Assembly: GCA_947062675.1 (NCBI GenBank)
Contig: CAMSQM010000008.1
Span: forward strand, 1 to 64,000
Source of the DNA: an uncultured Roseburia sp.
Lineage (GTDB): Bacteria > Bacillota > Clostridia > Lachnospirales > Lachnospiraceae
Reading direction: 5' to 3'
DNA: 64,000 nucleotides
Part shown: one piece after another, positions 37,265 through 46,692 of the stretch
Numbering within the stretch: position 1 is the stretch's first letter
Layout: the number at the start of each line of letters is the position of its first letter
The notes under the pieces: model-generated
What the model was told of the DNA's origin: nothing
The model's input: only the letters and a program-made list of their open reading frames with translations
The model's database searches: none
Position numbers and translations under genes: made by a program

Positions 37265-37789
37265 GTGACAGCAGAAGAAACAGAAAGATGTGTCGATGAA
37301 TTTGGCACAGATATATACAGGTTCTGCCTGAAACTTTGCGCGGACAGGGCGGACGCTGAGGATTTATATCAGCAGACTTTTCTGAAAGCGCTGGAAAAAG
37401 AGTGGACGCCGGACTGGGAAAGGAATCCGAGAGCGCTGTTTTTTTCTCTGGCTTATAATCTCTGGAAGAGCGAAAGAAGAAAACAGGCGCGCCGGAACAC
37501 GATTGCTCCGGGCAGCAGTTTTGATGATGAAGCGGAAACGGTATTGCGTTCGGGGGAAAATATTGAGGAAGGTTATCTTCACAAAGAACTGATCGCGGAA
37601 GTCCGTCAGATTATTCAGACGCTTCCGGAAAAATTTCAGGTGCCGCTGATATTATTTTATCTCTGCGACTGTCCGGTGGAGCAGATAGCGGCGGTTATAA
37701 AAAAACCGCCCGGCACCGTGAAAAGCCGGCTGTTCCGGGGAAGAAACCTGATAAAAAAGAGACTGGGGGATGCTGGTTATGAGAGATGA
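37265..37789 (+). CDS. ECF-type RNA polymerase sigma factor
   Basis: A 174-residue sigma-70-family factor with region 2 (about 10-80, YRFCLKLCADRADAEDLYQQTFLKALEK) and region 4 (about 115-170, LPEKFQVPLILFYLCDCPVEQIAAVIKKPPGTVKSRLFRGR). There is no region 3, as in ECF sigmas. GTG start, with GGGGGAGGTGAG directly upstream. Its 3' end overlaps the next gene by 11 nt, and a third membrane gene follows. The operon therefore looks like a sigma factor with two membrane partners, one of which may act as anti-sigma. Confidence 0.92.
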   Translation: MTAEETERCVDEFGTDIYRFCLKLCADRADAEDLYQQTFLKALEKEWTPDWERNPRALFFSLAYNLWKSERRKQARRNTIAPGSSFDDEAETVLRSGENIEEGYLHKELIAEVRQIIQTLPEKFQVPLILFYLCDCPVEQIAAVIKKPPGTVKSRLFRGRNLIKKRLGDAGYER

Positions 37790-38156
37790 CCGTACTGAGA
37801 GGGAAATGGAAGAAGTGATCCGTGCTTCCATGAAAATGACGGATGTTCCGTCAAAAGAACTGAATAGCAGGCTGAAAGCGGAGCTGTATCAGCGGGAAGC
37901 CGCCCTGCGAAAACAGCCCGCCGCGCATAAACTGTCACTGTGGTATCTGCCGATGGTGCTGAATCTGATCATGTTTTCCATGCTGGCTCTGTCTGCACTG
38001 ATCATGACTGACAATCTTTATTTATCTTACTTTGCGGCCGGTATCTGTTTTTATGCCGGTGCGGCCGGTATACTGCTTACTATTGTGGGCGTAAAAAGAG
38101 CAGATTTTAAGGAGGATATTACAATCCGCATTGAGAAACGGGGGATATTTGCATGA
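37779..38156 (+). CDS. Two-helix membrane protein, candidate anti-sigma partner
   Basis: A 125-residue protein with a charged N-terminal half (about 1-50, rich in Arg, Glu, Lys) and two transmembrane helices (about 53-75 and 83-105). A small cytoplasmic helical region before the membrane is the layout of many anti-sigma factors, but no zinc-binding His-x3-Cys-x2-Cys motif is present. Start 37779 lies 9 nt after GGGGG; an ATG at 37770 is also in frame. Its stop overlaps the next start (ATGA). Confidence 0.7.
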   Translation: MRDDRTEREMEEVIRASMKMTDVPSKELNSRLKAELYQREAALRKQPAAHKLSLWYLPMVLNLIMFSMLALSALIMTDNLYLSYFAAGICFYAGAAGILLTIVGVKRADFKEDITIRIEKRGIFA

Positions 38157-39043
38157 AACATATTAATAAAAATAAACTTCTGTTTTACACCGGTATTCCG
38201 GTAATCGTACTGCTGATTTTACTTCGGATGGGGCTGTATTTTCTGGGAAGCGATGGCTTCAGCGGTCTTTCCATGCTGATTCCCGCCCTGCTCTGCGGCT
38301 TTCTTCTGTCCGCACTGTGTACCTCTGCTTTTTTTGCGGCATGGGTATATCAGGATTGTAAAAGACGCGGAGACGATCCGGTACTGTGGGCGGTTGTGGT
38401 TTTTGCAGCCACACCCTTTATCGGACTGCTGACTTACTTTCTGCGCCGTTCAGAAATCAGAACGATATGTCCGGCCTGCGGACGGCGGATTTCAGTAAAA
38501 GCAAATTATTGTGAGGAATGTGGAACACCTGTCAGAAGAGAGGAGAATGGTGTTATGGCAAAACAGGGAACGCATCATTTAAAATTTATTGCTGCCGGTA
38601 TGGTGAGTATGGTGCTGATGTTCGTATGTCTTACAGGTTTTATCGGCAGTGCTGTCGCGGGTAACGGTATGAATACAAATGCCGCTTCGGGCGACCGTGT
38701 ATGGAACAAGGGTGTGATCAGCATGAATCATAACGTATACCTGAACGGGGTCTGGAAACTGGATTTCAGAAGTGCCAGTGAAGGCTTTGTGGAAGAGCAG
38801 AGTATGACGATTGCGGACGCGGGCGCTCAGCAGCTTTACGCGGATATTTCCTGCGGCACGGTACCGGATAATGCGTCGCTTGTCCTGTGGCTGGTACAGG
38901 GAGACGTCGCAGAATCGGTTGACGTCACAAATCTTTCCGAACCGCTGGAATATCCTCTGAATGGATTCGGGAATGGAAAAATATATGTCAGGCTGCAGAT
39001 CAATGGTGTGGAAAATACTGTTTCAGAAATCTGTATTCAGTAA
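38153..39043 (+). CDS. Membrane protein with zinc ribbon and exported beta domain
   Basis: A 296-residue protein. Two N-terminal helices (about 8-30 and 40-62) and a third hydrophobic stretch with PLDc_N-like character (QDCKRRGDDPVLWAVVVFAATPFIGLLTYFLRR) precede a zinc ribbon, CPACGRRISVKANYCEECG (about 104-122). A further helix (about 140-165) is followed by an exterior domain of about 130 residues with no family I recognise. This layout, a cytoplasmic zinc ribbon tied to an outside domain, suits a sensor in the ECF operon. It overlaps the preceding stop by 4 nt. Confidence 0.72.
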   Translation: MKHINKNKLLFYTGIPVIVLLILLRMGLYFLGSDGFSGLSMLIPALLCGFLLSALCTSAFFAAWVYQDCKRRGDDPVLWAVVVFAATPFIGLLTYFLRRSEIRTICPACGRRISVKANYCEECGTPVRREENGVMAKQGTHHLKFIAAGMVSMVLMFVCLTGFIGSAVAGNGMNTNAASGDRVWNKGVISMNHNVYLNGVWKLDFRSASEGFVEEQSMTIADAGAQQLYADISCGTVPDNASLVLWLVQGDVAESVDVTNLSEPLEYPLNGFGNGKIYVRLQINGVENTVSEICIQ

Positions 39044-39051
39044 TTGTCAAA

Positions 39052-39087
39052 GGCGGGAAAGCCCTGAAAGGGCTTCCCGCCCGTTTT
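39052..39087 (+). terminator. Terminator of the ECF sigma operon
   Basis: GGCGGGAA and GCCCT (39052-39065, one bulged A) pair with AGGGC and TTCCCGCC (39069-39081). A short T tract lies at 39084-39087. Confidence 0.8.
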
Positions 39088-39174: not shown

Positions 39175-39203
39175 TTGATATTCTTTGAAATCAGGAATAT
39201 AAT
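39175..39203 (+). promoter_or_regulatory. Promoter of the phosphorothioation-like operon
   Basis: TTGATA (39175-39180), 17 bases, TATAAT (39198-39203), inside an AT-rich 200-nt region and about 80 nt before the first gene. Confidence 0.8.
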
Positions 39204-39233
39204 AAATAGTATATTCCTGGAAACCGGGAATAT
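39192..39233 (+). promoter_or_regulatory. Overlapping palindromes at the operon start site
   Basis: CAGGAATAT (39192-39200) and ATATTCCTG (39211-39219) form a perfect palindrome across the -10 box and start site. ATATTCCTGG (39211-39220) also pairs with CCGGGAATAT (39224-39233) across three bases. A further half-site TTCAGGAT lies at 39158-39165. This looks like a multi-site repressor operator; alternatively the second pair forms an RNA hairpin. Confidence 0.6.
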
Positions 39234-39285: not shown

Positions 39286-41034
39286 ATGATTACATACACA
39301 TGTCACAATAAAGACCGGAAAACGGGTCTTGATCTCCCCTGTACGGGGATAAGCTGCAGGACGAGTACCTGTCCGTCCTGTGGCGGGAGAGCGGATGCGC
39401 ATTCCGCCATATACTGGTGCGGATATTGCAGAATTCCGGTATACACAGAAATCTGTCCTGTGTGCGGGAGTGCCGGGACATATCTCTCGACGGATCTGCG
39501 CCCGGTGTTTCCAGGGGAACGCCTGCTGGTCGAGATTCTTCTGGGGGAGCCGTTCTGTTTCCGGGAAGCCTCCGTGTGGAACGGGTCCGGCAGTCATTAT
39601 TTTGTGGATGGCCGCAGGATAGCGTTTTCCGTAAATGACTTAAAACGGGCGGATACAGGGAAGATACGGGAGGCTCTTGGCAGGCTGTGGCCGCACAACA
39701 GCAGCAGGGCGTTTGATGATATGGCGGAGCGGTTTGTGCGGGCCAATGCGGGGCGCTTTGCGCAGATGACGGAGGAGGCGGGGGATTATATCCGGACCGC
39801 CGCAGGGGAAGCCGGAGGGACGGGGATGTTTGTCTCATTCAGCGGAGGAAAGGATTCGACCGTCACGTCCGATCTCGTGACGCGGGCGCTCGGCAGCAGC
39901 CGGATCATGCATATTTTCGGCGATACCACGCTGGAATTTCCGTTTACCTATGAATATGTGGAACGGTTCCGCAGAACACACTTAAGCACGCCGCTGCTAA
40001 CGGCGCGGAATCGGGAAAAAGATTTTGAGGAGCTCTGCAGGCAGATCGGTCCGCCCGCAAGAGTGCTGCGCTGGTGCTGCACCGTGTTTAAGACGGGGCC
40101 GATCCAGAGGAAAATACGCGCGCTTTACCGGAGTGAGAGCCGGATTCTGACATTTTACGGAGTCAGAAGAAGCGAATCGGCGGGCAGGGGAAAATATGAG
40201 CGGGAGACGGACAGCCCGAAGATCGCGAGACAGCGGATGGCCTCGCCGGTGATCGACTGGATGGATTTTGATATCTGGCTTTACCTGCTGACGACAGGGA
40301 TTGACTTTAATGATGCCTACCGTCTGGGGTATACGAGGGTCGGCTGCTGGTGTTGTCCGAACAACAGCGCCTGGTCGGAGTTTCTCTCAAAAATTTATCT
40401 TGAGCGGCAGTCGCGGCAGTTCCGCCGGCTTCTGCTGGAATTTGCCCGAAGCGCCGGCAAAAAAGATCCGGAGACGTATGTGGACGGGGGATTCTGGAAG
40501 GCGCGTCAGGGCGGAAACGGGGTTGCGGGAGCGGGGAATGCCGTCGTGTCCGCCACACCGTGTGCCGCGGAGGAAAATACTTTCCACTACGAGCTTGTGC
40601 GGCCTGTTTCAGAGGAGCTGTACGGGCTGTTTCTCCCGTTCGGATATCTGAATTTTCAGATGGGGCGAAAGCGGCTCGGGGAGGTGTATGTGCTGGATGA
40701 GCGGGGCGGGATACTGCTCAGACTGCAGGGGCGTGAGGGTGCGGGGACGCTTAAGGTGACGATTGTAAATCACAGGATAGCCGGCGCCAGGGATATGAGG
40801 ACGGCGAGAGAGCGCGTCCGCTGTCAGCTCACAAAATATCAGATCTGTGTGGGCTGTCTGGCCTGCGAGAGCGTCTGCCGTTTTAACGCCCTCGTGGTCA
40901 GGGAGCGGGAAGACGGCGGTGTCCGGTACCGGATTGACGGCGATAAATGCAGGCGCTGTGGGGAATGTGTGAATCACTTTGCGGCTGGCTGTTATATGAA
41001 AAAAGTGCTTTCCGTCCGGAGGGATCGGGTCTGA
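39286..41034 (+). CDS. PAPS-reductase-like ATP pyrophosphatase with zinc ribbon and ferredoxin domain (SspD/DndC-like)
   Basis: A 582-residue protein. The N-terminus has three CxxC pairs (29/32, 45/48, 57/60), a zinc-ribbon-like region. The central domain (about 180-400) has the PP-loop SGGKDS (186-191), RWCCTVFKTGPIQ and GCWCCPNNSAWSEF, typical of PAPS reductase/DndC enzymes that adenylate a target and bind a 4Fe-4S cluster. The C-terminus is a two-cluster ferredoxin: C521-x2-C-x2-C-x3-C531 and C555-x2-C-x2-C-x7-C569. With a DUF4007 protein, a large ATPase and a cysteine desulfurase next to it, a role in DNA sulfur modification is inferred. BREX type IV BrxP is the main alternative. The ribosome site is weak. 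Confidence 0.82.
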   Translation: MITYTCHNKDRKTGLDLPCTGISCRTSTCPSCGGRADAHSAIYWCGYCRIPVYTEICPVCGSAGTYLSTDLRPVFPGERLLVEILLGEPFCFREASVWNGSGSHYFVDGRRIAFSVNDLKRADTGKIREALGRLWPHNSSRAFDDMAERFVRANAGRFAQMTEEAGDYIRTAAGEAGGTGMFVSFSGGKDSTVTSDLVTRALGSSRIMHIFGDTTLEFPFTYEYVERFRRTHLSTPLLTARNREKDFEELCRQIGPPARVLRWCCTVFKTGPIQRKIRALYRSESRILTFYGVRRSESAGRGKYERETDSPKIARQRMASPVIDWMDFDIWLYLLTTGIDFNDAYRLGYTRVGCWCCPNNSAWSEFLSKIYLERQSRQFRRLLLEFARSAGKKDPETYVDGGFWKARQGGNGVAGAGNAVVSATPCAAEENTFHYELVRPVSEELYGLFLPFGYLNFQMGRKRLGEVYVLDERGGILLRLQGREGAGTLKVTIVNHRIAGARDMRTARERVRCQLTKYQICVGCLACESVCRFNALVVREREDGGVRYRIDGDKCRRCGECVNHFAAGCYMKKVLSVRRDRV

Positions 41035-41082
41035 AAACACTCCGGATCAGTGAGGAAGCGGGAGGAAAGGGGACGGGGCCGT

Positions 41083-41961
41083 GTGACAAAGAATGGAGGA
41101 GTCCGTTTCAGGGGACATGAGACATTCACGCTGCGGGAAGGATGGCTGGACAAAGGACTGGCAGCGGTGGCGGCGAATCCGAAAGTTTTTTCAGAATATT
41201 ATGGGGCAGATGCCCTGGGAGTCGGGCCGAACATGGCAAAAGCGATACGCTACTGGCTCAGATGCGCTGGTCTGACCATGGAACGCCCGGGTGAGGGCGT
41301 CTGTCTGACGGAGACCGGGAGAATCATTCTGGAGCGGGATCCCTGTATCGGGGATGCTTTTACGCTCTGGCTCGTTCACTGCCGGATTGCGGCAAACCGC
41401 GGGCAGGCGACGGCGTGGAACCTGTATTTTAATGCGTTTGAATATGAGGAATTTGACAGGTATCAGCTTGTGCGGGGGATGAAGGAGCTTGCGTACAGGA
41501 CTGTGGGGGAGGAGGGGAAGAGACCGCCGGAGAAGTCCGTGGAGGACGACTGTGACGCGATTGTGGCCATGTATCTGAAGAAGGCGGGGCCGGGGACGCC
41601 GGAGGAGAAGACGGTCAGCCCGTTTGCAAAACTGGGGCTGCTCGTGGCCGCGGACGGCGTCTGCTGCCGCAGGCAGCCGGATATCAGCCGTCTGCCGGAG
41701 GATATTGTGCTCTATCTGCTGGCCGCATGCCGGCAGAATTCCGGGTCCATTGAGACTGACGGGCTGCTCACGGTCAGAGACGGTCCGGGCAGGCTCCTGC
41801 AGCTGGGAGGCGCCGCGCTGGCGGAGCTTGTGGACAGGCTGCGGGCGCGTGAGAAGATTATCCGCAACCGGTCTGCGGGGTTAAGCAGGCTCTGTCTGCC
41901 TGCGGATATCACTCCGGCCGGGGTGGTGGAAGCGTATTACGGCCGGCTGCACCGGCTGTGA
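41083..41961 (+). CDS. DUF4007 protein (SspB-like)
   Basis: A 292-residue protein beginning with the DUF4007 signature FRGHETFTLREGWLDKGL. It continues with helical segments and LGVGPNMAKAIRYWL, TETGRIILERDP and FTLWLVHCRIA, all typical of the family. DUF4007 is, to my knowledge, the family that contains SspB, the DNA nickase of single-strand phosphorothioation systems; no nuclease motif can be named from this sequence alone. The GTG at 41083 follows AAAGGGGA by 10 nt; a GTG at 41050 is also in frame. It lies between the ATP pyrophosphatase gene and the ATPase gene. Confidence 0.8.
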   Translation: MTKNGGVRFRGHETFTLREGWLDKGLAAVAANPKVFSEYYGADALGVGPNMAKAIRYWLRCAGLTMERPGEGVCLTETGRIILERDPCIGDAFTLWLVHCRIAANRGQATAWNLYFNAFEYEEFDRYQLVRGMKELAYRTVGEEGKRPPEKSVEDDCDAIVAMYLKKAGPGTPEEKTVSPFAKLGLLVAADGVCCRRQPDISRLPEDIVLYLLAACRQNSGSIETDGLLTVRDGPGRLLQLGGAALAELVDRLRAREKIIRNRSAGLSRLCLPADITPAGVVEAYYGRLHRL

Positions 41962-41997
41962 TAATACAGGAGCCCGCATTATTGAGAGGAGATGCAG

Positions 41998-44900
41998 ATG
42001 AAACAGTGCATCGCGCTTGTGCGCACCGGAAGTCATTTTCAAAAATCAGTAAATCTTCAGCTGGATGTGGGAAATGACACGCTGATTAAAACATATATTC
42101 CGACAGATTCTTCCGTCACGGTTCTGGACCGGTATCTTTCGGCGGTCTCCGGCAGGAGCTCTGAGCGCGCCACGGTCTTAACCGGCCCGCACGGAAGAGG
42201 AAAATCACATTTTCTGCTGGTGCTTCTCTCACTGCTGTCAGGGGCGTCTGAGGCCGGTCAGGAGCTTTTATCGGAGACAGAGCGGGTGGAGGAGCGGATG
42301 AGACGGGCGTGTCTGGCGGACTGCTCCGGCATGGATGGAATACATGTGACGAAAGATGTCTCTAAGCTGTGGAATTCCGGGAGAAAATATCTGTCTGTGC
42401 CGGTCAGCCCTGTTCCGGGGGTGAATTTAAATGATGTATTTATAACGGCGCTCTCGGAGGCGCTTTTTCGTGAAGAGGCCGGGGAAGCCGCAGCGGAAAG
42501 CCTTTACCCGTGGGGCGGCGTGTCTCTGCCCCTGCCCGGGACAGACGCCCTGTCCGTTTACCGTCAGACAGGGCGGATTCTGACGGAGAAGTGCGGATAT
42601 GCGGGTATGTTTATCGTATTTGATGAATTCGGCAGGTACCTGGAGGGCCATTCCGGAGAGGGATTTTCCGGCGATATGCAGACTCTGCAGGATTTGTGTG
42701 ACCTGGCGGAGAGGTCAGGGCAGGAAATATTTCTGACGCTCGTGGCGAATAAAAGTATTTACGCGTACCGGGAGGGGATTGCGGCAGCCGCAAAGAGCGC
42801 GTTTTGCGGTGTGGAGGGAAGACTGACGGAGGTGGAATTCGTGATTTCAGAGCAGAATCACTATGAACTCGCCGCGGGAGCCCTGATCCGTCAGGAACCG
42901 GAGTTTTCCGGGGCATATGAAGCGCTGTCGGGGAGCGGGGATTACGGCAGGCTGCTGGAGGAATCCGCCGGAATTTCGTATTTCAGAAGACTGTTTTCGC
43001 GGGAAGAGTTCTTTCAGAGGGCTGCAAAAGGCTGTTTTCCGATGGTTCCGCTGTTTCCCTGCGCGCTGCTGCGGATCAGTGAGCGTGTGGCGCAGAGTGA
43101 GCGCACGCTGTTCACTTTTCTCGCCGGGGACGGGCGGGGCGGCCTGAAGTGGCTCTTAAAAAACGGGCTGGAGGAACTGATCGGTGTGGACAAAATCTAT
43201 GATTTTTTCCGGGGATTCTTCCGCGGGACAGCTGATCAGCCGCGCATCCACAGCGAGTGGGTGAGGGCGGAGGACGCGCTCGCGCGGGTGACGGATGAGA
43301 CGGAGCGCGCCGTGATAAAAGCCCTCGCGGTGATCCGCATGATGCGCCGCGCGGAGGAATTTCCGGCGCGTGAAGATATTATCCGCCCTGCTCTCGGGAT
43401 CGGGGAGGAGCAGTGCCGCGTGGCCATTGCATCTCTCGTCGGAAAAGAACTGATTATTTTCCGGCACAGTGCCGGTGAATATGCGTTCAGAGCCCGCGCC
43501 GGCGCGGATATTGAGCGCGCGGTGCGAAAGAAGATGGAGGAGTACGGCAGCCGTTTCCGGGCGGCGGGGGTTCTGGAGGAAGTTGCAGAGCACAAATATG
43601 AACTTCCGATGCAGTATAACCGGAAATATGCCATGACACGTTATTTCCAGTATGTGTTTCTTGAGACAGAGGATTTTCTGCAGCTGCCGGACGCCGGCTA
43701 TCTGTTTGAGGAGGCATTTGCGGATGGAAAAATCATTGTGCTGCTCCGGACGGAGCGTGAGGAGAGCGGAAGCGCGTCTGAGTCAGTGCTGCAGAAACAT
43801 CTGGATCTGTTAAACGACGCGCGCGTCCTTCTTCTGCTGCCGGACCGGGCGTATGATGACGGCGGGCTGTGCAGAAAATACCGGGCCCTGCGTAATCTGG
43901 AGCGGGATGAGAAGTTTATCGACGGAAACCGGTCTCTTGCGCGGGAACTTGCCCTGTATGCGGAGGATACCGCTTTTGAAATCAACGCAAAACTGGAAAA
44001 GTGGTATCGGCCAAAACAGGGCCGTGTCCGGATCCTGGCGGCGGGAAAGCCGCCTGTTTTCCGGGAAAGCGGGGAGGCGTTCGAGGCACTTTTAAGCCGT
44101 ATCTGCATGGATTATTACAGCTGTGCGCCAAGGATCAATCTTGAGCTGCTGAATATCCGCAATCCCGGGGCAAGGTATCAGCGCGCGAGGGACCGGGTGG
44201 TGAAGAATCTTCTCGGCAGGGCGGATATGAGCGCGTACAGGCGGGGGACCGGTCCGGAGGCCATGATATACAGGGCGGTGTTTGTGCACACCGGGAGAGA
44301 TGAAGGGTTCCGGAAGGTGTCCGGTGAGATCAGCCGTTTCATACAGGGCTGTGCCGGAAAACGGAGATCATTTGAAATCCTTTACAGCAGGCTTTGCGGG
44401 AAGGACTACGGCGTGCGGCCGGGCGTGATGCCGCTGCTTGTGGCCGGAAAGCTGGCGGAGCAGGAAGATATCGCCGTCATTTATTCCGGAAAACGCGCGC
44501 TGGAGCCCGGGGCTGAGGTGCTCAGCAGAATCAATGAGCGGCCGGAAAGCTATGAACTGTATCTGGAATGCATGACGGAGGAAAAGGAGGAGTATCTGGA
44601 GAGACTTGAGATGCTGTTTAGTGCCGGAGCTTCCGGCGTGACGGAAAAACAGGGCAGGAGCGCAGGGATCTGCCGGCGGATGCAGGACTGGTACCGCTCC
44701 CTTCCGCAATATGCGCGGGTCACATCTGCGTTTGCGCCGGAAGACGCTGCAAAAATCAGCGCGTTCCGGGGCGCGCTCAGGCGCATTGAGGTGAACCCTG
44801 TGGAACTTCTGTTTGAACAGTTTCCACAGATAGCGGGGGCTGCGGGAGGCGGTTTGTGCGCCTGCGGGAGAGCGTCCGGGGGAGCTGTGGACATCTGCGC

Positions 44901-45486
44901 CGGCGGATATCTTAAGACAGCGGGGGAAATCGGGCGCTTACAGACGCTGCTGGATGGAAAGCTTCCGGAACTGAAACGGCAGATTGCGGAAAGCATCAGA
45001 ACGGTGTTCGGGATCGGAGAGGATGCAGGCATAAAGGAATTCCTGCAGGAATGGCGTCAGGGTCAGGCCGCCGCTGCGGGGAAAGCCGTGACAGGAGCCG
45101 TTGCGGGCCGGTTTCTGAAATATATAGAAAATCCGGCGGCGGATGATGAGGAGGAAACGGTCGGTGCGCTGTCGGAAATTGTGTCGGACCTTAGTCCCGG
45201 GGACTGGAGGGACGGGGCGCTGGAACAGTTTGTGTCAGAACTTTCCGGGATCAGGGATGAGCTGGAGGAAGCTTTTTCAGGCCGGAAAAATACGCGGCAG
45301 TGCACGTCGGTGATTGTGCAGAAAGCTGACGGCAGAGCGGTGGAGCGGTATTTTGAGGAGAAGCCTGCAGGGCAGACCGGCGTTTATCTGAAAAATATGA
45401 TGACGGAGGTGCTGGAGGAATTTGGCGAGGCGCTCAGCCCGTCCCAGAAAGCGGCTGTTCTCGCGCAGCTGCTTGTGGAGATCTGA
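41998..45486 (+). CDS. Large P-loop ATPase (SspC-like; BrxC-like alternative)
   Basis: A 1162-residue protein with a Walker A motif GPHGRGKS (63-70) and a Walker B motif FIVFDE (D209, E210). A LTLVANKS sensor-like strand follows about 45 residues later. The rest has no recognised enzymatic motif and contains many charged helices. In Ssp systems a P-loop ATPase (SspC) accompanies the modification proteins. BREX BrxC/PglY proteins are similar in size and also carry GxxGxGKSHFL, so family placement needs a profile search. The ATG at 41998 is 6 nt after GAGAGGAG; an ATG at 41992 is in frame. Gaps of 36 and 27 nt to its neighbours indicate one transcript. Confidence 0.78.
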   Translation: MKQCIALVRTGSHFQKSVNLQLDVGNDTLIKTYIPTDSSVTVLDRYLSAVSGRSSERATVLTGPHGRGKSHFLLVLLSLLSGASEAGQELLSETERVEERMRRACLADCSGMDGIHVTKDVSKLWNSGRKYLSVPVSPVPGVNLNDVFITALSEALFREEAGEAAAESLYPWGGVSLPLPGTDALSVYRQTGRILTEKCGYAGMFIVFDEFGRYLEGHSGEGFSGDMQTLQDLCDLAERSGQEIFLTLVANKSIYAYREGIAAAAKSAFCGVEGRLTEVEFVISEQNHYELAAGALIRQEPEFSGAYEALSGSGDYGRLLEESAGISYFRRLFSREEFFQRAAKGCFPMVPLFPCALLRISERVAQSERTLFTFLAGDGRGGLKWLLKNGLEELIGVDKIYDFFRGFFRGTADQPRIHSEWVRAEDALARVTDETERAVIKALAVIRMMRRAEEFPAREDIIRPALGIGEEQCRVAIASLVGKELIIFRHSAGEYAFRARAGADIERAVRKKMEEYGSRFRAAGVLEEVAEHKYELPMQYNRKYAMTRYFQYVFLETEDFLQLPDAGYLFEEAFADGKIIVLLRTEREESGSASESVLQKHLDLLNDARVLLLLPDRAYDDGGLCRKYRALRNLERDEKFIDGNRSLARELALYAEDTAFEINAKLEKWYRPKQGRVRILAAGKPPVFRESGEAFEALLSRICMDYYSCAPRINLELLNIRNPGARYQRARDRVVKNLLGRADMSAYRRGTGPEAMIYRAVFVHTGRDEGFRKVSGEISRFIQGCAGKRRSFEILYSRLCGKDYGVRPGVMPLLVAGKLAEQEDIAVIYSGKRALEPGAEVLSRINERPESYELYLECMTEEKEEYLERLEMLFSAGASGVTEKQGRSAGICRRMQDWYRSLPQYARVTSAFAPEDAAKISAFRGALRRIEVNPVELLFEQFPQIAGAAGGGLCACGRASGGAVDICAGGYLKTAGEIGRLQTLLDGKLPELKRQIAESIRTVFGIGEDAGIKEFLQEWRQGQAAAAGKAVTGAVAGRFLKYIENPAADDEEETVGALSEIVSDLSPGDWRDGALEQFVSELSGIRDELEEAFSGRKNTRQCTSVIVQKADGRAVERYFEEKPAGQTGVYLKNMMTEVLEEFGEALSPSQKAAVLAQLLVEI

Positions 45487-45513
45487 AACGGCGGGGCAGG
45501 AGGGGAAGACAGC

Positions 45514-46692
45514 ATGGAAATCATTTATCTTGACAATGCGGCGACCGCATTTCCAAAGTCAGAGGCGGTATACCGGGCGATTGACCGGGCCGGACGGGAG
45601 TACGCTGTGAGCGCGGGCCGGAGCTCACATACCCTGTCCAGGCGGGCCGCGGATGTGATCGCTGAGGCCAGGGAGGAACTTCTCCGGCTTTCGGGAGCGC
45701 CAAAGGGCGCGGAAGCAGTGTTTGCACCCTCGGCCACGATTGCGTGCAATCAGATTTTCGGCGGGATTTCCTGGAAGAAAGAGGATGTGGCGTATGTATC
45801 TGCCTGCGAGCACAATGCCGTGATCCGCGTGCTGCATCATCTCAGCCGGCAGTACGGTTTTACCGTCGCAGAGCTGGCGGTGGATCCGGCCACGCTGCAG
45901 CCGGATCCGGAGCATATTGCATATCAGTTCCGGAGAAAAAGCCCTTCCGTGGTGGCGGTGGCGCACGTCGGAAACGTGCTCGGCAATATACAGCCGGTTG
46001 CGCAGGTCTGTGCGCTTGCAGCGCGGCACGGGGCGCTGACAGTGGTGGACGGGGCGCAGGCGCTCGGTCTGGTTCCGGTCTGTCTGCGCGACATGGCGGT
46101 GGATTTTTACATATTTGCCGGACACAAGACCCTGTGCGGGCCGTACGGTGCGGGCGGTTATGTGAACTGCCGCGGCGCCGTGTTAAAACCATATCTGGCC
46201 GGCGGTACCGGGAGCGATTCGCTGAGTCCCTGGATGAATCCCGGTATTTCCGGCGCGCAGGAGCCGGGGAGTGCGGATGTCCCGGCGATCGCAGGTCTGT
46301 GCGCCTCCGTGCGGGAGATTCGGGAGACCGTGGAGAGGAGCGGCAATCCCGCCGCTTTTCTGGAGCGTGAGAGCGGGCTTGCGCAGCGGCTCGCCGCCCG
46401 TCTTGGAGAAATACCCGGGGTGACGGTGTACAGGGCCGGAGGCCCCGGGGAACAGACCGGGATTGTGGCATTTAATATAGAGGGATTTCTGGCGGATGAG
46501 GCTGGAACGCTTCTCGATGCGGAGTACGGGATCGCGGTGCGGTCGGGTTATCAGTGCGCCCCGCTGATTCACAGGTATCTGGGAAGCGTGGCGTATGGCG
46601 GCGTGATCCGGGCGGGGATCGGACGGTTTACAGCGGAGGAGGACACCGGTCATCTTGTCCGCGCTGTAAAAGAGCTGGCGGAGAACGCATAA
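45514..46692 (+). CDS. Cysteine desulfurase, SufS/CsdA type (SspA/DndA role)
   Basis: A 392-residue PLP enzyme (aminotransferase class V) that draws sulfur from cysteine as a protein-bound persulfide. It starts with IIYLDNAATAFPKS; H in SACEHNAVIR stacks on PLP, K205 (FAGHKTLCGPYG) forms the Schiff base, and C348 (RSGYQCAPLIH) is the persulfide-carrying Cys. No iscU or sufU scaffold is beside it. Instead it closes the operon with the ATP pyrophosphatase, DUF4007 and ATPase genes, which fits a dedicated sulfur donor for DNA modification. GGAGGGG lies 9 nt before the ATG. Confidence 0.92.
   Translation: MEIIYLDNAATAFPKSEAVYRAIDRAGREYAVSAGRSSHTLSRRAADVIAEAREELLRLSGAPKGAEAVFAPSATIACNQIFGGISWKKEDVAYVSACEHNAVIRVLHHLSRQYGFTVAELAVDPATLQPDPEHIAYQFRRKSPSVVAVAHVGNVLGNIQPVAQVCALAARHGALTVVDGAQALGLVPVCLRDMAVDFYIFAGHKTLCGPYGAGGYVNCRGAVLKPYLAGGTGSDSLSPWMNPGISGAQEPGSADVPAIAGLCASVREIRETVERSGNPAAFLERESGLAQRLAARLGEIPGVTVYRAGGPGEQTGIVAFNIEGFLADEAGTLLDAEYGIAVRSGYQCAPLIHRYLGSVAYGGVIRAGIGRFTAEEDTGHLVRAVKELAENA

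Follow-up and report, generated by a model that had tools for sequence, protein, structure and literature searches.

We characterized a four-gene operon in a 64,000-nucleotide stretch of DNA from an uncultured Roseburia sp. (contig CAMSQM010000008.1, positions 1 to 64,000; here called the window), and we hold with moderate confidence that it is a DNA phosphorothioate (PT) writer left without a linked effector by secondary loss, i.e., the writing half of a clostridial Ssp lineage whose genes stand in the order D-B-C-A. This reading draws on the gene identities, the conserved gene order, the missing linked effector, the nested position of the locus in a phylogenetic tree, intact motifs, and a retained promoter-like block. 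As judged from its sequence, the writer is probably still able to modify DNA, and it is possibly decaying. An earlier reading of the same DNA without database searches (the sequence-only reading) had recognized the parts of an Ssp-type phosphorothioation system here; this holds for the writer genes, given the SspB and SspC profile matches, but not for completeness, as only the writing half is present.

The operon occupies positions 39286..46692 of the window and consists, as that reading had it, of four tightly packed open reading frames (ORFs) on the + strand: D (39286..41034, 582 amino acids), B (41050..41961, 303 amino acids, with a GTG start), C (41992..45486, 1164 amino acids from the first ATG and 1162 from the second), and A (45514..46692, 392 amino acids), with intergenic gaps of 15, 30, and 27 bases for D/B, B/C, and C/A, respectively. 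B is SspB, the subunit predicted to bind and nick DNA. Its DUF4007 domain (PF13182) spans residues 20 to 297 (E value, 2e-69), PADLOC scores it as SspB with 163 bits, and the solved SspB structures 6juf and 6lb9 in PDB are matched at an E value of 4e-21, which bears out the proposed membership of the DUF4007 protein in the SspB family; it is the sole DUF4007 protein in the host genome. C is an AAA+ ATPase identified as SspC, with PADLOC scores of 325 bits (E value, 2e-97) for SspC versus 110 bits for BrxC-PglY, and its Walker A (GPHGRGKS) and Walker B (FDEF) motifs are intact. Pfam gave no strong family for C (top match, AAA_16, with an E value of 0.007), and PDB gave no sequence match at an E value of 1. 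The very large ATPase had been regarded as a departure from the textbook system, but its size is normal for the SspC family: the 11 SspC models listed have 828 to 1104 positions, and untruncated relatives have 1137 to 1230 amino acids, except for one of 712 amino acids (L045). A plasmid search with C returned 38 records, every one below 60% identity, and the single record covering at least 80% of C was from Treponema saccharophilum.

D is an SspD/BrxP-like PP-loop ATP pyrophosphatase. The PAPS-reductase features already noted in it correspond to PAPS_reduct (PF01507) at residues 181 to 359 (E value, 2e-30), and a C-terminal ferredoxin with eight cysteines is matched by Fer4_7 at residues 521 to 563 (E value, 1e-6) in Pfam. 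The N-terminal cysteine-rich part appears zinc-ribbon-like, the putative zinc ribbon and the number of clusters being predicted from the cysteines. The SFSGGKDS and CWCCPN motifs and the eight ferredoxin cysteines are identical in 12 of 12 aligned sequences, including the window, and D is 65 to 70% identical to seven aligned Roseburia sequences. The fused ferredoxin, which had also been taken as a departure from the textbook system, is not new, because a ferredoxin-bearing PAPS reductase has been described for BREX-4, as BrxP, and the same arrangement for a subset of SspD (PMC12839542). A, which occupies the SspA position, is a SufS-like cysteine desulfurase, and the earlier assignment to the cysteine desulfurases is upheld by Aminotran_5 (PF00266; E value, 1e-58). 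It scored 283 bits with TIGR01977, 190 with sufS, 81 with IscS, and 120 with the PADLOC SspA profile; in PDB, it matched SufS with 136 bits and IscS with 64 bits. The curated NCBIfam cutoffs were reached by none among the matches listed (best 25 of 39 for D and best 25 of 34 for A). The FAGHK motif with Lys-205 and Cys-348 of A are identical in all 11 aligned sequences. We take Lys-205 to be the lysine that binds pyridoxal phosphate and Cys-348 to be the catalytic cysteine, the motif roles in D, C, and A being presumed from those usual for these folds.

Among clostridia, D-B-C-A is a common arrangement of Ssp. When named genomes were scanned, 306 relatives of C were obtained, and the best 80 loci were kept; these are the closest relatives of C rather than a sample of all Ssp systems. 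The labeled genes read D-B-C-A in 71 of the 80, the rest being cut, partial, or with a gene inserted or doubled, and the carriers include Roseburia inulinivorans DSM 16841, Eubacterium sp. 14-2, Lacrimispora saccharolytica An861, and Eisenbergiella tayi DSM 26961. The presence of ssp genes in R. inulinivorans DSM 16841 and in two strains of R. intestinalis had already been reported (PMC7464106). Within the family, DUF4007 turned up in 22 of the 397 genomes sampled; within the genus, 11 of 62 genomes had C-like genes. Both counts include the host genome. One genome (G449) carries two D-B-C-A modules, one continuing with DUF262-PbeC-Cas9 (L069) and the other with SspF-SspG (L071).

Linked partners are the rule among these relatives. 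The downstream genes were labeled by means of profiles, for which relatives had first been classified with PADLOC and Pfam; the labels were two DUF262/GmrSD types, PbeA, PbeC, U170 (170 residues), SspF-G-H (SspG and SspF confirmed by profile, SspH named from position alone), a ResIII helicase-HATPase-PLD trio, and Cas9. In 70 named loci, the sequence extends 3 kb or more beyond A, and every one of them has an effector-type gene on the same strand no farther than 6 kb downstream. The first such gene is PbeA in 22, SspF in 14, ResIII in 12, DUF262b in 11, DUF262 in 9, and PbeC in 2. Ten named loci with less than 3 kb after A were left out (L114, L124, L127, L136, L154, L160, L178, L180, L183, and L185). 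As an upstream control, an effector-type gene was found within 6 kb upstream of D in 2 of the 62 named loci that have 3 kb or more of sequence on that side. In a second set of 25 testable loci that included the window, 23 have an effector, and the two without one are the window and L029; 14 of the 25 repeat named loci, and 9 of the other 11 have an effector. The effector profiles were seeded partly from the counted loci, so these counts are not a blind test. The trio after A in 12 of the 70 testable named loci (e.g., L034:259-4707) comprises a ResIII helicase, an HATPase_c_3 protein of about 600 amino acids, and a PLD-domain protein of about 300 amino acids, and it appears to be an additional type of PT effector. 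In L029 (genome G171), the second effector-less D-B-C-A locus, A is followed by an alpha/beta-hydrolase gene.

No effector or effector remnant was detected at an E value of 0.01 in the 64-kb window by tblastn with effector proteins or by an unfiltered six-frame hmmsearch (at least 30 codons); both recovered only D, B, C, and A. There is no SspE-like DUF262, SspFGH, or Pbe gene within the window, and the genes after A encode a Methyltransf_11-type protein (46799) and a chemotaxis receptor (47687). In a FastTree phylogeny of concatenated D, B, C, and A (78 loci and 2,409 columns), the window is sister to L118 (support, 0.998), followed outward by L114 (1.0), L115 (1.0), and groups of six (0.762) and eight (1.0) loci. 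L118 has D-B-C-A followed by DUF262 only, on a contig that continues beyond; L114 has DUF262 and PbeC after A and then reaches the contig end; the other five loci of the eight-member group, including L115, have DUF262, PbeC, U170, and Cas9. This nesting of the window among DUF262-PbeC-U170-Cas9 Roseburia loci points to stepwise effector loss, as read from the sequences. The simplest account is that Cas9 and PbeC were lost first and DUF262 afterward; transfer of D-B-C-A alone into the host genome is a possible alternative. Two exceptions to effector linkage were seen, the window being one of them, and its sister loci would represent less advanced loss.

Should the four proteins act as their relatives do, the desulfurase A would remove sulfur from cysteine as a persulfide, and the PP-loop enzyme D would accept this sulfur and activate the target with ATP, its iron-sulfur clusters serving as sulfur or electron handlers. 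B would recognize and nick the DNA, the AAA+ ATPase C might drive loading or scanning, and one nonbridging oxygen at a short motif would be replaced by sulfur. We propose that the linked effectors found in the closest relatives (a DUF262 nuclease, PbeC/U170, and Cas9 with CRISPR) may have been lost stepwise; with these gone, the mark, if made, would therefore no longer feed a neighboring restriction effector. It might serve by itself as an epigenetic or redox mark, or it might simply be persisting for now.

Several observations weigh against a working writer that has lost its effectors. We compared 76 loci at near-invariant columns, defined as those at which at least 97% of the other loci agree, and the window has 19 substitutions there, the most of all (the next loci have 14, 14, and 11), so its activity may be impaired. 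Its sister L118 has 4, and about 4 are predicted from the branch length of the window, giving a Poisson probability of 4e-8 for 19; this value is too small because the counts are overdispersed, with L191 and L179 also showing high ratios. Ten of the 19 fall in C, e.g., Y67H and L74F at Walker A, and C deviates at 11 of 63 near-invariant columns, one deviation being a gap. The module may accordingly be decaying, selection having relaxed once the effector was lost, so that the writer is inactive or on its way out. We consider this unlikely: the four ORFs are intact, and Walker A and B, SGGKDS, the ferredoxin cysteines, the putative pyridoxal phosphate lysine, and the catalytic cysteine are all kept, as is the promoter block, whereas the effector-less L029 is not elevated (5 substitutions). 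A different concern is that the host genome (2,996,907 bases in 87 contigs) is only 94.86% complete and might hold the partner elsewhere, e.g., a DUF262 protein acting in trans, in which case the operon would belong to a complete PT-based defense. Five GmrSD_N/DUF262-N ORFs are present in the genome, any of which is a possible unlinked partner, and there is a published precedent in which the desulfurase, although not an effector, is encoded elsewhere in the genome (PMC8092258). However, all five score best as NsnA in PADLOC, and three of them adjoin a homologous ATPase gene, one of which scored as NsnB; PbeC, SspG, and Cas9 gave no matches in the genome, in searches that had no positive control. 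PbeA-profile matches reached at most 29.7 bits and are weak matches to helicases, the PbeA search also matching all 14 control genomes. The effector searches of the host genome covered PbeA, PbeC, SspG, Cas9, and DUF262, with SBD readers, DndFGH, and the ResIII trio outside their scope. With a linked effector in 70 of 70 testable named relatives, we regard an unlinked one as quite unlikely. The three DUF262-N and AAA ATPase gene pairs lie in L073, L074, and L075 (contigs C23, C18, and C32); their DUF262 halves score as NsnA, and the ATPase scored is that of L073.

The profile search advised in the sequence-only reading placed B and C with Ssp. D is by PADLOC nearer BrxP (250.8 bits over 429 residues) than SspD (48.2 bits over 175 residues; DndC, 28.5 bits), a further point against our reading. 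We therefore considered a BREX type 4 locus (BrxP, DUF4007, and BrxC) with partners missing or distant, where DUF4007 and cysteine desulfurases also occur (PMC12839542). That report found PglZ in every one of its 457 BREX-4 taxa and BrxL in 436. Neither PglZ (PF08665) nor BrxL (PF13337) was found in the host genome, in searches that were each positive in 2 of 14 control genomes. BREX-4 membership, raised by the BrxP score of D, was consequently rejected; the refuting case named in the sequence-only reading, BREX type IV with pglZ and brxL elsewhere in the genome, was thus not observed. Given also that C scores as SspC well above BrxC and that the neighbors across the lineage are Ssp/Pbe-type effectors, a BREX-4 locus is very improbable. 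Hardly credible is an operon unrelated to DNA that transfers sulfur to tRNA, to a cofactor, or in sulfur assimilation: PAPS reductase, ferredoxin, and a SufS-like desulfurase are indeed folds of sulfur metabolism, but they are linked here to SspC and to an SspB with a structurally solved relative, and nucleases and helicases are neighbors across the lineage.

Compared with known systems, the window resembles the SspABCD system of Vibrio cyclitrophicus FF75 in having SspB, SspC, a PP-loop SspD-like enzyme, and a cysteine desulfurase, but its order is D-B-C-A in place of the FF75 sspBCD operon, its D carries a ferredoxin, and it lacks SspE; its A is SufS-like, whereas FF75 SspA is 57% similar to IscS (PMC7188994). 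With DndABCDE it shares a cysteine desulfurase and a PP-loop enzyme to supply sulfur, whereas DndB, DndD, and DndE were unmatched in PADLOC among the four proteins of the operon. BREX-4 (BrxP-BrxC-PglZ-BrxL) is similar in its BrxP-like D with ferredoxin, DUF4007, an SspC/BrxC-type ATPase, and the cysteine desulfurase, which occurs in 56% of BREX-4 taxa (PMC12839542); it differs in that C of the window is SspC-type, DUF4007 is a separate gene, and PglZ and BrxL were not found. The closest counterparts, the clostridial D-B-C-A loci, have the same four genes in the same order, but they carry DUF262, PbeA-PbeC, SspFGH, or the ResIII-HATPase-PLD effector after A, and the window carries none of these. 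As a writer without a recognized effector, the window also resembles orphan sspBCD, the state of 2,211 of 2,678 sspBCD loci, which lack sspE and sspFGH and for which both unknown partners and true orphans have been proposed (PMC8092258); many PT-containing strains are likewise reported to lack restriction genes (PMC7464106 and PMC11931770). An orphan PT module is thus a known kind, since these three reports describe such cases, and the ferredoxin fusion and ssp genes in Roseburia are also already known. The window differs from these orphans in that a broader range of effectors was considered in testing for their absence and in that the loss was placed on a tree. What this analysis adds is that, for close relatives of the module, a linked partner is the normal state and that the condition of the window looks like a late loss. 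Among the 80 closest named relatives, the gap in recognized effectors looks like one of unrecognized partners, with an effector-type gene in every testable locus. Related gut Roseburia offer a way to test what purpose a PT writer serves when no cutter accompanies it.

In Roseburia and its kin, the PT module runs on into DUF262-PbeC-U170-Cas9. Cas9 comes next in all six named loci with DUF262 and PbeC, without PbeA, and with at least 3 kb following (L115, L116, L119, L120, L121, and L126); four others of this kind (L114, L117, L122, and L155) were left out, their sequence ending within 184 bases. Cas9 is also present in three further loci of the same kind (L094, L095, and L104) and in one (L140) but not the other (L164) of two PbeC loci without DUF262 or PbeA; it is missing from all 19 PbeA-PbeC loci that have 3 kb or more of sequence, two of which (L144 and L173) also have a DUF262 gene. 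PADLOC identified Cas9 in L065, Cas1 and Cas2 in L096 and L104, and Cas1 in L097. In five of the six extended loci (L094, L095, L096, L098, and L104), Cas9 is accompanied by Cas1, Cas2, and an array of repeats spaced in a CRISPR-like manner; the array of L104 is a 24-mer in 76 copies, 65 to 66 bases apart with one gap. In L097, which has Cas9 and Cas1, neither an array nor a Cas2 gene of 80 amino acids or more was found. Distances between Cas9 proteins follow those of PbeC (r = 0.95; P = 0.0006; 7 loci) more closely than those of D (r = 0.74; P = 0.012). U170, a protein of about 170 amino acids, regularly stands after PbeC (e.g., L064:2229-2738), and the copy tested had no Pfam or PADLOC match. 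No link between a PT module and Cas9 appeared by title or abstract among the literature matches listed, and the word Cas9 is absent from the main texts of PMC12839542 and PMC10853773. A composite PT/type II CRISPR locus is possible on the basis of gene neighborhood, and the recurrence of the block together with Cas9 hints that sulfur marks on the backbone and CRISPR may be connected. A more far-reaching idea, which we offer as improbable speculation, is that in Roseburia and kin D-B-C-A, DUF262, PbeC, U170, and Cas9-Cas1-Cas2-CRISPR are one inherited composite whose PT mark might provide information to restriction as well as to CRISPR; the window would be a descendant that has shed every linked effector, making a free-standing epigenetic mark, with its ATPase, and perhaps its targeting, changing.

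Upstream of D, a promoter-like block (TTGATA-17-TATAAT; 39175..39203, + strand) matches the consensus at 11 of 12 positions. Of the 15 loci tested, the window among them, 14 have this same block (TTGAAATTCT..GAATATAAT) no more than 500 bases upstream of D. The pattern TTGA.ATTCT..GAATATAAT lies within 200 bases of D in 8 of 9 loci, L069 lacking it, and at 252 to 454 bases in the other six; it is loose, occurring in 2.5% of shuffled 200-base regions. The kept block suggests, as far as sequence can tell, that the operon is still transcribed. A palindrome with 10-bp arms (39192..39219) lies over the -10 box and is a possible operator; the excess of ATTCTTA half-sites upstream of D in the window was not significant (P = 0.36), and the operator claim based on these half-sites was dropped.

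The upstream sigma-factor unit (37265-39043) is common to three genomes of the genus without a C-like gene (G418, G444, and G402), and DNA similarity to them stops 0, 2, or 13 bases past the last gene of the unit, at 39056 at the latest. No clean empty insertion site could be demonstrated, because the genes after the unit show no similarity to each other or to the window. A hairpin with a T-rich tail, read from the sequence at 39052-39081 after this unit, lies roughly where the similarity to relatives without the operon stops (39043-39056). Base composition was also considered as a sign of transfer, the operon genes having a G+C content of 57 to 62% against about 54% for most genes of the window. 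The operon is likewise richer in G+C than its flanks in all nine relatives measured, so this is not evidence of recent import.

A small HTH_3 protein is encoded near D, mostly divergently, in many non-Roseburia loci (L028:2764-3111 and its cluster mates, 10 loci; the HTH_3 profile was checked for the L028 copy only). No homologue clustered with it among the window ORFs of at least 80 amino acids. In the non-Roseburia loci, this protein is possibly a regulator of the operon.

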